A stretch of DNA of 45,197 nucleotides from a virus: positions 1 through 45,197 of IMG/VR virus record IMGVR_UViG_3300020580_000027, one strand, 5' to 3'. A program made the position numbers and the translations under genes. The notes beneath the pieces were generated by a model. The model was not told the DNA's origin. It did no database searches and saw nothing but the letters and a program-made list of their open reading frames with translations. Positions 2,348 to 45,197 of this stretch are shown in pieces (positions within the stretch are counted from its first letter, which is position 1; every line of letters begins with the position of its first letter).

Positions 2348-2520
2348 CGGTTTGCGCCGAATGCGATGCGGGATTCCATAGTCAGTGCGCCAGCCCAAAC
2401 GGGTGCGATTGCGACTGCAATTATGAGTCGTTCTTCTCAGAAGATTTGACCGATATAGCATGGCAAGAGTTGGACGTAGACGATTTTGATGCGAATGAGG
2501 AGCAAGAGAATGTACGGTAG
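2344..2520 (+). CDS. Tiny acidic Cys-rich protein
   Basis: A 58-residue protein whose ATG overlaps the previous stop (ATGA). The first half has seven cysteines (CAEC, then CASPNGCDCDC), resembling short bacterial zinc motifs of the C.C..G.HS.C..P.GC.C type. The second half is strongly acidic (LDVDDFDANEEQE). Metal binding is inferred; its partner is unknown. Confidence 0.65.
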   Translation: MTVCAECDAGFHSQCASPNGCDCDCNYESFFSEDLTDIAWQELDVDDFDANEEQENVR

Positions 2521-2794
2521 GGAAACTTACTTTTCCGCTCGCGGCCAAGATGAGCCTTCCGTCTCTAAGAGCCATTGCCAAGTGTGCACCAAATACGTTA
2601 AGGTCTTGAAATCTGGACGTTTGGCAGCTCATCTAATCGCCGGAGTTCCCTGTCACGGGCCAAATATAATCAGCAAAAATCCTCATGCTAAAGCCCTCGG
2701 CAAGCTCGGCGGCAAGGTCAAGAGCGAGCGCAAAGCGGCAGCGTCGCGCAAGAACGGCAAACTAGGTGGGCGGCCAAAGCAAGCACGAAGTTAG
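2510..2794 (+). CDS. Zinc ribbon protein with KGG-like tail
   Basis: A 94-residue protein. ATG 2510 is chosen over an upstream in-frame ATG because GAGCAAGAG precedes it and the family N-terminus fits. The motif CQVCTKYVKVLKSGRLAAH...PCHG is a phage zinc ribbon. The C-terminus, ALGKLGGKVKSERKAAASRKNGKLGGRP, has two K/R-x-GG repeats of the KGG type seen in bacterial stress and phage small proteins. Nucleic-acid binding is likely from the basic, glycine-rich tail but is not shown. Confidence 0.75.
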   Translation: MYGRETYFSARGQDEPSVSKSHCQVCTKYVKVLKSGRLAAHLIAGVPCHGPNIISKNPHAKALGKLGGKVKSERKAAASRKNGKLGGRPKQARS

Positions 2795-2933
2795 CATTGA
2801 GTTTGACGAGCGATTCTGCGCAAGGCCTTACGGCATCGTTTGTAGCTGTGGGTTCCGAGGCTGTGCAGCGGATGAAGTCGAGGCCCAGCAAGTGAAAGCA
2901 GCGCATGAAGGGCGCGAGAAGAGTTTGGGATAG
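2766..2933 (+). CDS. Small Cys-containing early protein
   Basis: A 55-residue protein from GTG 2766, overlapping the previous gene by 29 bases in another frame. Cys18 and the pair Cys26/Cys28 (VCSCGF), with Cys33, resemble the phage pattern in which a CSCGF segment precedes an Ala/Glu-rich helix (here ADEVEAQQVKAAHEG). It is probably a zinc-binding mini-domain. The weak start codon and overlap lower certainty. Confidence 0.55.
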   Translation: MGGQSKHEVSIEFDERFCARPYGIVCSCGFRGCAADEVEAQQVKAAHEGREKSLG

Positions 2934-2946
2934 TGAGCGAGGGATT

Positions 2947-3204
2947 ATGAAATCTTACAAAAATGCGGTAGTAGAATGCGGGGATTTTAGTTGGCGAGGT
3001 AAAGCACAGAACCTTGATGATGCAATTATTGGGGCACTGGCGAAGCATCTCCCAAAAAATCCATCTTTGTTGCTTAGGGCCAAAGTCGCTGGGCATAAAG
3101 CCAAAGAGGGAGGTTGGCACTACATAGCATTTGAATCAGCGTTGCGCATCGCCGGTTATGGAATTAGAAAGACTAAAGAAGGATTTGTGGTGGAGCGGCC
3201 ATGA
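2947..3204 (+). CDS. Hypothetical early protein
   Basis: An 85-residue protein from ATG 2947, with GCGAGGG upstream. It is mixed alpha/beta-looking, with WRGKAQNLDDAIIGALAKHLP and a basic C-terminal half; no cysteine cluster and no recognised family. An upstream in-frame ATG at 2905 would add 14 residues without a better ribosome site. The stop overlaps the ATG of the next gene. Confidence 0.7.
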   Translation: MKSYKNAVVECGDFSWRGKAQNLDDAIIGALAKHLPKNPSLLLRAKVAGHKAKEGGWHYIAFESALRIAGYGIRKTKEGFVVERP

Positions 3205-3356
3205 GCAAAGCCCAAGGGATGCAGCGCGACTTATTGCCTATAGCGGCTGGCTGGCAGCCCATCGTGGTGGATGGCAATCGGGGCTACCGGCTGGGCAACT
3301 GGCTGACGTGGATGGACCCGCAAAGGGGATGGCTGTGGATGTGGAGCAAGCCGTGA
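3201..3356 (+). CDS. Tryptophan-rich mini-protein
   Basis: A 51-residue protein coupled by ATGA to the upstream gene. It has eight tryptophans, most in the second half (LGNWLTWMDPQRGWLWMWSKP). It is not a clean transmembrane helix, since charged and proline residues interrupt it, but membrane-surface or aromatic packing is plausible. No family is recognised. Confidence 0.6.
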   Translation: MSKAQGMQRDLLPIAAGWQPIVVDGNRGYRLGNWLTWMDPQRGWLWMWSKP

Positions 3357-3601
3357 GGATAAGCCTAGGTCTAGTACCTGAGCTACATCGCTGCAAGTTC
3401 CATCATTGCCGGATGCGGTCGAGAGTCGAGCCAGCACCCTTGTTCTTGGCCCCTGGGAGCCGCGTAGAGCGATTAAAGCGGGTGGTATGGCGTTGCCCTA
3501 GGCAAAACTGTCATTTCGTCATCTGTGGGGAGCAGAACTACATTCGCAACGTAGAGGAGCGAAAGACTATCTCAGCCCTTGGACGGTACTATGCCGATTA
3601 A
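3353..3601 (+). CDS. Zinc-binding early protein
   Basis: An 82-residue protein starting at GTG in a GTGA overlap. Cys14 and Cys19 in an N-terminal segment, and Cys48, Cys54 and Cys59 in CPRQNCHFVIC, suggest a zinc ribbon. The C-terminus (QNYIRNVEERKTI) is helical and basic. No family name is assigned. Confidence 0.65.
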   Translation: MRISLGLVPELHRCKFHHCRMRSRVEPAPLFLAPGSRVERLKRVVWRCPRQNCHFVICGEQNYIRNVEERKTISALGRYYAD

Positions 3602-3887
3602 CCAAGGGCAAATCTTGCTGGCCAAACACTTGAAAGAGCTTGGTGTGTTGTTTCGCCAGCAAGAGCCTGTCTGTCCAGAGCGCAAGTGGAGGCTAGATTT
3701 CTACTTGCAGGATTACAGAATAGGGATAGAAGTGGATGGCTATTTCGCCGGCAAGCACGGCGCAGGCTACGGCTCAGACAATGAGAAGTCCAACACCGCG
3801 ACCATGTTAGGCATTCGGATGCTGCGATTCAGCACCAATGACGTGAAGCGCGGCAAGGCCAAGGAATTCATTGAGCACTGGCTGTGA
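3591..3887 (+). CDS. PD-(D/E)XK nuclease, DUF559/Vsr-like
   Basis: A 98-residue protein from ATG 3591. The core WRLDFYL...YRIGIEVDG gives Asp36, Glu47 and Asp49; the later segment GIRMLRFSTNDV matches the strand that follows the active site in DUF559/Vsr-type and phage endonuclease folds. Expected function: a small DNA endonuclease for repair, resolution or host-DNA attack. Catalysis rests on motif spacing only; the usual final Lys or Gln is not unambiguous. The start overlaps the preceding stop by 11 bases. Confidence 0.78.
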   Translation: MPINQGQILLAKHLKELGVLFRQQEPVCPERKWRLDFYLQDYRIGIEVDGYFAGKHGAGYGSDNEKSNTATMLGIRMLRFSTNDVKRGKAKEFIEHWL

Positions 3888-4174
3888 GCGCACCTGCTAC
3901 CAGCAGCGAGGGACTTTTTGTAGACCCGTGCGCTGAAGTTGCTGGCATTCATGGCTACCGCACGGATGAGTTTTTAGGGTGGAGAAGAAAGAGAGGCGAA
4001 ATGGGCAAGCCCCTATATAATATTTTTGTTCTTCAGTGTGTGTCCTGCAAGGCTATCGACCAGCGCGAGACGAAGAATGTAACAGAGCAGCCATTTTGCG
4101 AAAAGTGCTATTCGCCAATGGTGACGAAGAGCGTGATTCTCAATTCCAAGGTTTTCCCTGTGAGGCAACCATAA
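3884..4174 (+). CDS. Zinc ribbon protein, start uncertain
   Basis: From GTG 3884 (overlapping TGA) the product is 96 residues. A second in-frame start, ATG 4001, has a better ribosome site (GAGAGGCGAA) and would give 57 residues. The conserved part is the C-terminal ribbon CVSCKAIDQRE...FCEKC, two CxxC knuckles about 20 residues apart. The N-terminal 39 residues look poorly structured. Both forms could be made. Partner unknown. Confidence 0.65.
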   Translation: MSAPATSSEGLFVDPCAEVAGIHGYRTDEFLGWRRKRGEMGKPLYNIFVLQCVSCKAIDQRETKNVTEQPFCEKCYSPMVTKSVILNSKVFPVRQP

Positions 4175-42274: not shown

Positions 42275-42804
42275 AGCTGCAAGGTCTTTCGCTCAAGGTT
42301 GGCGCTCATTCGCCAGATTCTACTTTTTGCGTGATGGAAGCTGTAGCGTTTGTTGCTGGCGAGCCGTGGACGGATTCACCTGTTTGCGCTTGCCCGGTAA
42401 TCTCGGCGTTCCTGCGCAACTGGAATGATTGCTTGCCCAACGACACGGAGCGCGACCGCTTACTTAAACCCCTTATCCCGCGCTTAGTAAACACGCGCAA
42501 TAAATCGCTGGAGCAAAAGCGGTCACTGATGGCCGCTGATTGGCTAGTTCGCGTTCATACACCCGCTTGGCTTCGCCTCGCTGGACTGGTGAAGCAAGCT
42601 GAATCGCTGGAACAGTTACCCGAAATTATCAGCATGGCGCAGATTCCTTCCATCGAAGGCCCGATAGAAGCGGTCAGACAGGCTGCCAGGGCCGCTGCCA
42701 GGGCCGCTGCCGGGGCCGCTGCCGGGGCTAAGTTGGCTCCTACCGTCGCCAAGCTGCAAAAATCAGCCCTTGCGCTCGTGGAGCGCATGATAGGAGCAAG
42801 CTAA
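42247..42804 (+). CDS. Conserved phage protein of unknown function, Ala-repeat C-terminus
   Basis: A 185-residue protein. Residues 28-85 (FCVMEAVAFVAGEPWTDSPVCACPVISAFLRNWND, then LLKPLIPRLVNTR) match a widespread actinobacterial and phage family of unknown function I recognise from its 'C.MEA.a...GE...D.P.c.cPvi..f....ND' block. The C-terminal part has an Ala helix (144-161) coded by a 12-bp tandem repeat, so its length may vary. Neighbour of the ERF gene; a role in replication or recombination is a guess. Confidence 0.78.
   Translation: MQVIEERWIKLQGLSLKVGAHSPDSTFCVMEAVAFVAGEPWTDSPVCACPVISAFLRNWNDCLPNDTERDRLLKPLIPRLVNTRNKSLEQKRSLMAADWLVRVHTPAWLRLAGLVKQAESLEQLPEIISMAQIPSIEGPIEAVRQAARAAARAAAGAAAGAKLAPTVAKLQKSALALVERMIGAS
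42681..42728 (+). repeat. 12-bp tandem repeat inside coding sequence
   Basis: Four 12-base units of the form GGGCCGCTGCCA/G, adding A-A-A-R or A-A-A-G per unit to the protein encoded at 42247-42804. Repeats of whole codons allow length change without frameshift. Confidence 0.85.
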
Positions 42805-43592
42805 TGAACGAACCACAAGTCAACAAGCCTAATGGCGCAGAGCCAGTGCCGGAAACGCCCAAGGCCAAGAACCTTGTACAGAAACTGTGCGAAGTCATGG
42901 CCACTATCGGCTATATCGCTAAGAAAGGTGAGAACAAATTTCATGGCTACAAGTATGCGAAAGAATCGGACATCGTCGATGCTATTCGTGGGGAGCTTGC
43001 ACAAAGGAACCTATTTATCTTCCCGAGTGTTGTATCTCACGCGCGAACAAGCGAAATCACTGACATCATGGTTCGATGGACTTTCGTTGACGGGGACTCC
43101 GGGGAAACGAGGGATTGCGACATACCTGGCAGTGGTCACGATAAGAGTGATAAAGGCGTCTACAAAGCCTTAACCGGGAGCGAGAAATATTTCTTGATGA
43201 AAAGCTTCCTAATTCCCACAGGGGATGACCCAGAGGCCGACAGCAAAGATGAGCGCGAGAATGCCCGTAGCGAGGCCAAGAAGGTCGGGGAGGCCAAAGT
43301 AGCCAAGCTCAAGGAGAAGATGGGCCAGAGCGCCCCAGAATCGCAGGAACAGCCAGACCCTAAGCCGATAGTGCTCTTTAGCTGCTTTTTGGGCGATAAC
43401 GTGTACGAGGTCAGCGGGGACGGCTACATCCTCCAAAGCAATTCTGACATCCTGCTCAAGAACGGCAAGAAAGTGAAAGGCGAGTCCGGCAAGGCGGTAG
43501 TCCACATGGACGCTCTTGGGCTGGATACGTTCAAGTTTGAGTTTGAAAAGCGCGGGGGATTCCTCAAAGCTCTAAAGCCGGTGACAGCGTGA
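42804..43592 (+). CDS. erf: ERF-family single-strand annealing protein
   Basis: A 262-residue protein. Residues 24-75 (LVQKLCEVMATIGYIAKKGENKFHGYKYAKESDIVDAIRGEL) carry the ERF signature of paired helices with GxNxFxxYKY. Later blocks VRWTFVDGDSGE, GVYKALTGSEKYFLMKSFLIP and DDPEADSKDE fit the family core. A charged linker and a C-terminal beta domain follow. ERF binds single-stranded DNA, pairs complementary strands, and circularises or recombines phage genomes. Joined to its neighbours by overlaps. Confidence 0.9.
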   Translation: MNEPQVNKPNGAEPVPETPKAKNLVQKLCEVMATIGYIAKKGENKFHGYKYAKESDIVDAIRGELAQRNLFIFPSVVSHARTSEITDIMVRWTFVDGDSGETRDCDIPGSGHDKSDKGVYKALTGSEKYFLMKSFLIPTGDDPEADSKDERENARSEAKKVGEAKVAKLKEKMGQSAPESQEQPDPKPIVLFSCFLGDNVYEVSGDGYILQSNSDILLKNGKKVKGESGKAVVHMDALGLDTFKFEFEKRGGFLKALKPVTA

Positions 43593-44662: not shown

Positions 44663-44947
44663 ATGAAGAACCAAGCAGTTCTAGTGACAACGATTCACAA
44701 GGGAGTTTTCTTCGGTTATGCCAGCGAAGGCGTAAAGGCCAAGTCCATCACTATCACCAATGCCCGTAATTGCGTGTATTGGTCTGCTGATGTGAAAGGC
44801 TTTCTGGGCCTTGCTGCAAATGGCCCGACAAGCACTTGCCGCATCGGTCCCAAGGTTCCCGAACTCACGCTTACAGATGTGACCTCAGTATCGAAGGTCA
44901 CGCCAGAAGCTACTGAGAAGTGGGAGAAGAGTCCGTGGGCGCTCTGA
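44663..44947 (+). CDS. DUF6948-like phage protein
   Basis: A 94-residue protein. The blocks VLVTTIHKGVFFGYASEG, ITNARNCVYWSADVKGFLGLAANGPTSTCRIG and ELTLTDVTSVSKVTPEATEKWEKSPW match the family I know as DUF6948, small soluble beta proteins common in phage and bacterial genomes, function unknown. It has its own promoter and perfect AGGAGG. The next gene starts inside its last codons, so the two are translated as a pair. Confidence 0.85.
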   Translation: MKNQAVLVTTIHKGVFFGYASEGVKAKSITITNARNCVYWSADVKGFLGLAANGPTSTCRIGPKVPELTLTDVTSVSKVTPEATEKWEKSPWAL

Positions 44948-45197
44948 AATATGGCAAGTTGCCTAGCTCCGGCTACGGCTCCGGCTACGGCTCCGGCTAC
45001 GGCTCCGGCTCCGGCTACGGCTCCGGCTCCGGCGACGGCTCCGGCAACGGCTACGGCTACGGCTACGGCTACGGCTCCGGCAACGGCTCCGGCTCCGGCT
45101 ACGGCTCCGGCGACGGCTCCGGCTACGGCTCCGGCGACGGCTCCGGCTACGGCTCCGGCTACGGCTACGGCTACGGCTACGGCTTGAAAGAAGCCAC
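44935..45197 (+). CDS. Gly-Tyr/Ser repeat protein, 5' part (continues at window start)
   Basis: GTG 44935 overlaps the DUF6948 gene by 13 bases; GGGAG lies at ribosome-site distance (44922-44926). After MGALKYGKLPS come 72 residues in strict alternation of Gly with Tyr (15), Ser (16), Asp (3) or Asn (2), coded only by GGC and TAC/TCC/GAC/AAC. The frame runs without stop through the right terminal repeat into base 140 on the left and ends at 479, giving 200 residues with a DUF7666-like C-terminal domain. Another frame over the repeat (from ATG 44951, Ala-Pro-Ala-Thr) stops at 45187 and lacks any domain. The repeat could be extended, silk-like, or phase-separating. Confidence 0.85.
   Translation, partial: MGALKYGKLPSSGYGSGYGSGYGSGSGYGSGSGDGSGNGYGYGYGYGSGNGSGSGYGSGDGSGYGSGDGSGYGSGYGYGYGYGLKEA
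44968..45183 (+). repeat. Imperfect GGC-NNC hexamer array
   Basis: 36 hexamer units of form NNC-GGC, where NNC is TCC, TAC, GAC or AAC, over 216 bases. Every change is in the first or second base of one codon, never in Gly, so selection on the protein is likely. Prone to slippage and assembly error; true length may differ. Confidence 0.92.
45072..45197. repeat. Right copy of 126-bp terminal direct repeat
   Basis: Identical to 14-139. Its last 14 bases are unique downstream coding sequence of the repeat gene, which shows the contig end continues into base 140. Confidence 0.9.

Follow-up and report, generated by a model that had tools for sequence, protein, structure and literature searches.

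A glycine-alternating low-complexity protein and its overlapping DUF6948 partner appear to form a widespread two-gene module of phages

The window analyzed here is the whole 45,197-nucleotide stretch of viral DNA. The genes and features discussed below, all on the + strand, are as follows, with the basis for each in parentheses.

1 to 139, + strand: terminal overlap, a second copy of the 3' end of the tract (98% identical to 45059-45197)
126 to 479, + strand: 117-residue C-terminal domain with a DUF7666-like predicted fold, and stop codon (AF2, BFVD, 27-member alignment A4)
42804 to 43592, + strand: Erf-like single-stranded DNA annealing protein, the nearest upstream gene of known function (PHROG 155, E 1.3e-34)
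44663 to 44947, + strand: DUF6948 (PF22253) gene, 94 amino acids, predicted Sm/LSm-like fold (Pfam E 1.6e-22; AF2; Foldseek)
44922 to 44926, + strand: Shine-Dalgarno-like GGGAG, 8 nt 5' of the GTG (direct sequence reading)
44935 to 45197, + strand: 5' part of the Gly-x gene, with GTG start, 12-residue leader and tract; the gene resumes at 140 (joined ORF)
44971 to 45183, + strand: Gly-x low-complexity tract, 71 residues, built of hexamers GGC(TAC/TCC/GAC/AAC) (sequence)

The initial annotation had proposed that one gene is divided between the two ends of the contig, and our analysis bore this out. Bases 1-139 repeat bases 45059-45197 except at three positions, none of them beyond base 13 of the contig, and joining 44935-45197 to 140-479 produced a single ORF of 200 amino acids. 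This ORF consists of the leader VGALKYGKLPSS, the Gly-x tract and the 117-residue domain, and ends with the stop codon at 477-479. The GTG at 44935 and the ribosome site assigned to it were both present. The tract comprises 35 Gly-x pairs and a Gly, with 15 Tyr, 15 Ser, 3 Asp and 2 Asn at the x positions, and a 36th counted Gly pair, G-L, leads into the C-terminal domain. The length of 71 residues is a best estimate, the tract being longer than a short read. At the first bases of the contig, G-D-A-C is encoded where the other copy encodes G-Y-G-Y; this mismatch is either a contig-end error or a true variant. The two false frames that had been predicted for gene callers were also found, as an ATG ORF at 44951-45187 and a TTG ORF at 126-479.

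Searching with the C-terminal domain turned up homologues on 26 viral contigs and two bacterial genome contigs. In every homologue with intact 5' sequence, a tract in the Gly-x frame, the frame that contains the 15 tyrosines in the window, lay immediately 5' of the domain; a search for relatives that had lost this frame, proposed at the outset as one way to overturn the reading, came out in its favor. All 36 Gly codons counted in the window tract are GGC (p ~4e-12 given the phage's own Gly codon usage). Because the Gly codons are uniform and the Gly-x frame is kept in essentially every 5'-intact relative, we conclude that the tract is not a product of chance. Wrong-frame gene calling was seen in deposited genomes as well. 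In Chlorobiaceae phage CV-1-33 (L279, 2080-2325) the deposited gene 25 is a misframed Gly-x tract, annotated as MAMAMAMALAM..., with Gly-x as the conserved frame, and in Iodobacter phage PhiPLPE the tract was left unannotated. Several contigs begin or finish inside the tract, so assemblies are broken there time and again. One isolate, Rhodopseudomonas infernalis HC1, has DUF6948 and tract at the close of one contig (L162) and tract and domain at the opening of another (L038).

The earlier reading overlooked the overlapping DUF6948 gene, which is a near-constant partner of the tract. The window protein matched the Pfam family over residues 4-87 with 79.9 bits (cut-off 27; E 1.6e-22), a full-length match above the gathering score, and the Gly-x GTG lies within the 3' end of the DUF6948 gene, giving a 13-nt overlap. 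Linkage was examined in both directions. In the forward test, viral contigs were scanned with the tract DNA pattern alone, yielding at least 120 stretches; the matches listed included 93 loci with a Tyr-containing tract, 17 of them cut off upstream, leaving 76 evaluable loci. Among these listed matches, a DUF6948-like ORF lay directly upstream on the same strand in 67 of the 76 and was absent from 9, and the 1.05 Mb of tract-found contigs held only one further DUF6948 match. The Gly-x start codon overlapped the DUF6948 stop in 63 of the 67 (matches listed), commonly at −13 nt, as in the window. In the reverse test, 112 loci came from two scans with single DUF6948 proteins; the DUF6948 DNA was distinct in 104 of them. 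A Gly-x tract was present within 500 bp downstream in 101 of the 112; 10 contigs end inside the tract. Four of the remaining contigs end too early, and the other seven loci failed the automatic tract test. Inspected by eye, these seven consisted of three with degenerate Gly-x sequence, one with a short tract (about five pairs), two with the tract slightly farther away, and one without a tract. From the forward and reverse counts, with the failures checked by eye, we conclude that DUF6948 and Gly-x are an almost obligatory pair. We made the local DUF6948 model iteratively from the collected loci; Pfam's own model independently confirms the copies in the window, in L046, in L065 and in Rhodopseudomonas. 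In one record (L284, MW202478.1, 1427-2046) the gene order is reversed, the Gly-x tract ORF lying upstream of DUF6948. The pairing is common in phages and no single oddity, and from the sequences collected it appears to be a widespread, apparently undescribed phage two-gene module.

Structure prediction for DUF6948 (AF2, 46-member alignment) gave a model with a pLDDT of 94. The predicted fold is a five-strand small beta-barrel, as in the Sm/LSm superfamily, and the listed Foldseek matches in the PDB were mostly Sm/LSm proteins (probability 0.96-1.00, E about 0.01-0.08, best 0.015), and the top matches were Sm/LSm without exception, at probability 1.00. They included 3by7, which the PDB describes as resembling Sm/LSm-like RNA-binding proteins. 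The RNA-pocket residues of these families, the Sm1 Asp/Asn and the Sm2 Arg-Gly, were not apparent in the DUF6948 alignment (A5) when examined by eye only. A sequence-profile search of the PDB with DUF6948 and the C-terminal domain returned nothing convincing. DUF6948 is described here as a small protein with a predicted Sm-like fold.

The C-terminal domain of the Gly-x protein had been called DUF7666-like. This assignment held at the level of predicted fold and not at the Pfam threshold. The AF2 model of the domain (27 members; pLDDT 91) matched predicted viral DUF7666 proteins in BFVD with probability 1.00 and a best E of 4.2e-4; a DUF7666 protein of Hyperionvirus gave E 5.3e-4, a TM-score of 0.58 and probability 1.00, and pentapeptide or ankyrin repeat proteins were also among the BFVD matches. 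The window Gly-x protein itself did not match Pfam DUF7666 (PF24703), and the closest relative by sequence, L027, reached only E 0.0046 and 17.9 bits, below the cut-off of 27. Plain Pfam and PHROG searches with the domain found nothing, PHROGs contained no family matching the Gly-x protein, the domain or the DUF6948 protein of the window, and a PDB fold search with the domain gave no match. A DUF7666 search across 200 genomes of a single phylum gave no hits, the controls included. By tblastn, the window domain had no match in the named phage collections, nor did its L019 homologue in the named phage and plasmid collections.

To describe the protein architectures we counted 214 distinct tracts, 23 of them cut by a contig end, leaving 191 uncut. 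A protein was scored as tract-only when no more than 20 residues, or nothing but Gly-rich sequence, came after the tract. This class contained 135 of the 191, which makes the tract, and not the DUF7666-like domain, the conserved core, and implies that the role must reside in the tract itself. The DUF7666-like domain was present on 37, a share inflated by how the loci were gathered; the other ends were a second, HxLTGSC-containing domain (7), a short Trp-containing tail (2), and others (10). On these counts the C-terminal domain is an optional add-on. Two related records were noted. In L160 (Dulem virus 31), a 35.8-kb record yet classified as Microviridae, an HxLTGSC-like C-terminal domain follows SGDYAQLAS-type repeats at 2395-3393, with no Gly-x tract in place. 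In L159 (Tetrasphaera phage TJE1), an HxLTGSC-type domain stands alone at 3522-3920 upstream of an ERF gene, and the stretch read contained no tract or DUF6948.

The composition of the tracts was determined for 123 distinct tracts gathered by protein similarity and not by tract, with 3342 x residues. The x residues were 33.9% Tyr, 32.8% Ser, 22.7% Asp and 4.7% Asn, with only 7 Arg and 1 Gln among them. Mean within-tract diversity (pi) was 0.433 at the first and 0.459 at the second position of x codons, as against 0.083 at the third, and 0.084 at the third position of Gly codons. Within a tract the third bases are uniform, and the variation is almost all nonsynonymous. Between tracts the dominant third base varied (for Gly, C in 91, G in 16, T in 14 and A in 2; for x, C in 87 and T in 36). 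If codon positions 1 and 2 were independent, 269 Ala and 79 Thr codons would be expected; 26 and 34 were observed, and this depletion shows selection on the protein, in the Gly-x frame. Identical six-residue x blocks recurred 217 times within tracts, compared with a mean of 69 (maximum 112) in shuffled tracts, a sign of block copying. A diversity-generating retroelement was considered as the source of the nonsynonymous-only pattern and is not favored, given the narrow residue set. A G-quadruplex was rejected as a general role, ready formation being possible in GGG-type tracts only.

Comparisons between close relatives showed how far the tracts can differ, a difference to which chimeric assembly could contribute. 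Where flanks are 99-100% identical, the tracts are mostly the same if both are fully read, and at about 94-97% flank identity they are largely different between some relatives. L034 and L246 (93.6% upstream) share the upstream half and have largely different tracts and different C-terminal ends; L262 and L263 (94% upstream) have part of the tract in common; and L088 and L262 (97% downstream) have tracts that are unlike throughout. L177 and L178, with identical flanks and different tracts, are an apparent exception. In L262, an upstream half like that of L263 is joined at the tract to a downstream half like that of L088. This swap and the L177/L178 exception could reflect real recombination or chimeric assembly. 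Taken as sequences, these patterns suggest that the array turns over fast, by slippage or recombination, with selection probably preserving the Tyr/Ser/Asp mix.

The module was found in the complete genomes of isolated phages (Pectobacterium phage Taid, Iodobacter phage PhiPLPE, Vibrio phage IKEMa6-1 and Chlorobiaceae phage CV-1-33) and in Monoglobus, Neisseria gonorrhoeae and Rhodopseudomonas genomes. The window DUF6948 had no match among named phages; that of L046 had 16. The module is rare per genome in the class of Rhodopseudomonas: 3 of 289 genomes contained DUF6948, and the two new ones also had Gly-x tracts. The N. gonorrhoeae record (L281, NZ_CP119142.1) is 2.17 Mb long, is filed as a plasmid, and has three DUF6948 places; the one inspected is followed by a Gly-N/D/S/Y tract.

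Genes for recombination functions lay within 2.5 kb upstream at 24 of 89 loci, compared with 7 of 68 downstream, both counts being lower bounds that include close homologues only. Sampled neighbors included Sak4, Erf, a RecE-like exonuclease and SSB; phage Taid has Erf, SSB and exonuclease VIII beside the module, and the PhiPLPE module is near RecE/Bet. This link involves a minority of loci and may merely reflect where phages keep small early genes. Two other features of the surroundings were noted: in the window, a 12-bp tandem repeat, GCTGCCAGGGCC (3.9 copies, 97% matching), at 42682-42728 just 5' of the Erf-like gene, and in L173 (400-1269) a QueC-like queuosine gene that precedes DUF6948 by about 1.2 kb.

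Before this analysis DUF6948 was known as a named family with no assigned function, and individual genes were deposited as hypothetical. The upstream partner belongs to it by Pfam score; the coupling to Gly-x and the Sm-like fold prediction are newly drawn here. A literature search, thin on subscription journals, found no paper that mentions DUF6948, DUF7666 or the tract letters. The DUF7666 proteins are repeat proteins of phages and giant viruses; the window domain is alike in predicted fold and below the cut-off by sequence, its companion here is an N-terminal Gly-x tract, and most Gly-x proteins lack the domain. The tract itself resembles the [G/S]Y[G/S] domains of FUS/TAF15 in its low complexity and in tyrosines spaced by Gly or Ser, all 15 Tyr in its 71 residues being flanked by Gly. 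It differs in its strict two-residue alternation, in having Asp in place of Gln, and in the lack of Arg/RGG. The Gln/Ser-rich context with RGG/RNA-binding regions typical of FUS is missing from the window tract, which contains no Arg or Gln, and we saw no sign of common descent. Sm/LSm proteins and Hfq, among them P-body LSm proteins that have low-complexity tails, share with the module a small beta-barrel (predicted for DUF6948) and a low-complexity chain; however, identity in the listed Foldseek hits is 6-16%, no RNA-pocket motif is obvious by eye, and the low-complexity chain is provided in trans. A bacterial SSB with an intrinsically disordered linker is reported to condense (PMC12143593). 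The likeness is a disordered chain near DNA recombination functions, and the difference is that the Gly-x proteins have neither the OB-fold SSB domain nor the acidic SSB tip.

Our preferred reading, held tentatively and at clearly less than an even chance, is that the tract protein is a disordered, Tyr-rich multivalent scaffold, co-translated with its Sm-fold partner and acting near phage DNA recombination or replication. It draws on the DUF6948/tract linkage, the Sm-like fold prediction, the protein-level selection, the tract-only proteins and the recombination context. The DUF6948 gene would produce a small protein with the predicted Sm-like fold, and the second gene, starting inside its end, a mainly Gly-x (Tyr/Ser/Asp/Asn) chain, sometimes with an add-on domain. 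We infer that this chain is unstructured and multivalent, with tyrosines as stickers and Gly/Ser/Asp as spacers; that it is made in step with the Sm-fold protein and binds it; and that the two together would build an assembly or local condensate, which would bind and collect proteins and nucleic acid of the phage, probably at sites of recombination or replication. The putative droplet-forming role of the tract is plausible; the early expression, FUS-like behavior and recruitment of host or phage factors suggested in the initial annotation are conjectural. Against the scaffold stand the Foldseek E values of only 0.01-0.08, the lack of an obvious Sm1/Sm2 RNA-binding signature by eye, and the lack of Arg in the tract. 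Tyr-Arg pairing strengthens FUS condensation, and an Arg-free tract lacks such pairing. A bolder version, which we regard as doubtful, is a ribonucleoprotein or DNA-protein granule system, in phages of several bacterial phyla, in which translational coupling would link an Sm-fold ring protein to a Tyr/Gly scaffold that is encoded separately and evolves fast, and which would have been hidden by repeat-broken assemblies and wrong-frame calls.

Four other explanations were weighed against the scaffold. The rapid turnover of the tract might be its point, the tract being a hypervariable protein target, or else a decoy, for bacterial factors such as a host defence system or a protease, with DUF6948 delivering or protecting it. 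Relatives with similar flanks and largely different tracts (L034/L246, L262/L263, L088/L262) and the nearly all nonsynonymous variation (pi 0.43/0.46 vs 0.08 at third positions) fit this idea; but turnover of any hexamer array scrambles the order without selection, some of the metagenomic differences may be chimeric assemblies, and phyla share one narrow residue set, which is not what a target evading many recognizers would show. We consider it unlikely. It is less likely still that the tract is an inert spacer that makes no interactions itself and only gives DUF6948 or the C-terminal domain a flexible, soluble linker or bulk tail. Chains rich in Gly, Ser and Asp typically act as linkers, and the wide range in length (about 15-60 pairs) would suit one, but a third of the x residues are Tyr and Ala and Thr are avoided, neither of which a plain linker requires. 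The spacer is disfavored by the tract-only proteins, since 135 of the 191 distinct uncut proteins end with the tract and have nothing to link.

An ordered fiber, in which the alternation sets Gly on one face and Tyr/Ser/Asp on the other to form silk-like or cross-beta sheets, perhaps of a structural fiber, is very unlikely. The alternation is near-unbroken across tens of pairs in most relatives, but period-6 copying would maintain it anyway. Silks usually pair Gly with Ala, which is avoided here, and Asp, at 23% of x, works against the stacking of sheets; Gly, Ser, Asp and Asn all tend to form turns and coil. Equally improbable is a DNA-level element, in which the GG-rich hexamer array would serve as a recombination hotspot or module-swapping joint next to the phage recombinases and the protein would be incidental. 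The composite L262, joining L263-like and L088-like halves, the different C-terminal ends of L034 and L246, and the excess of block repeats (217 vs a shuffled mean of 69) speak for such a joint, although short-read assemblies can jump across repeats and mimic swaps. The codon evidence disfavors it: the bases of the array vary between phages (Gly third position C/G/T/A; x third position C/T) in ways that are silent only in the Gly-x frame, and Ala codons are avoided, a signal at the level of the protein.

With this analysis, what looked like one odd gene becomes a phage module that is widely conserved and open to test. It also exposes a systematic blind spot, as metagenomic phage contigs often break in the tract and gene callers miss or misframe it. 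The tracts are a clean case of fast repeat turnover with selection on amino-acid content. Should the tract condense, it would rank as a very simple low-complexity scaffold from nature, with a two-residue period and four main residue types; a partner would already be at hand, as would many natural variants, among them those of isolated Pectobacterium, Iodobacter and Vibrio phages.
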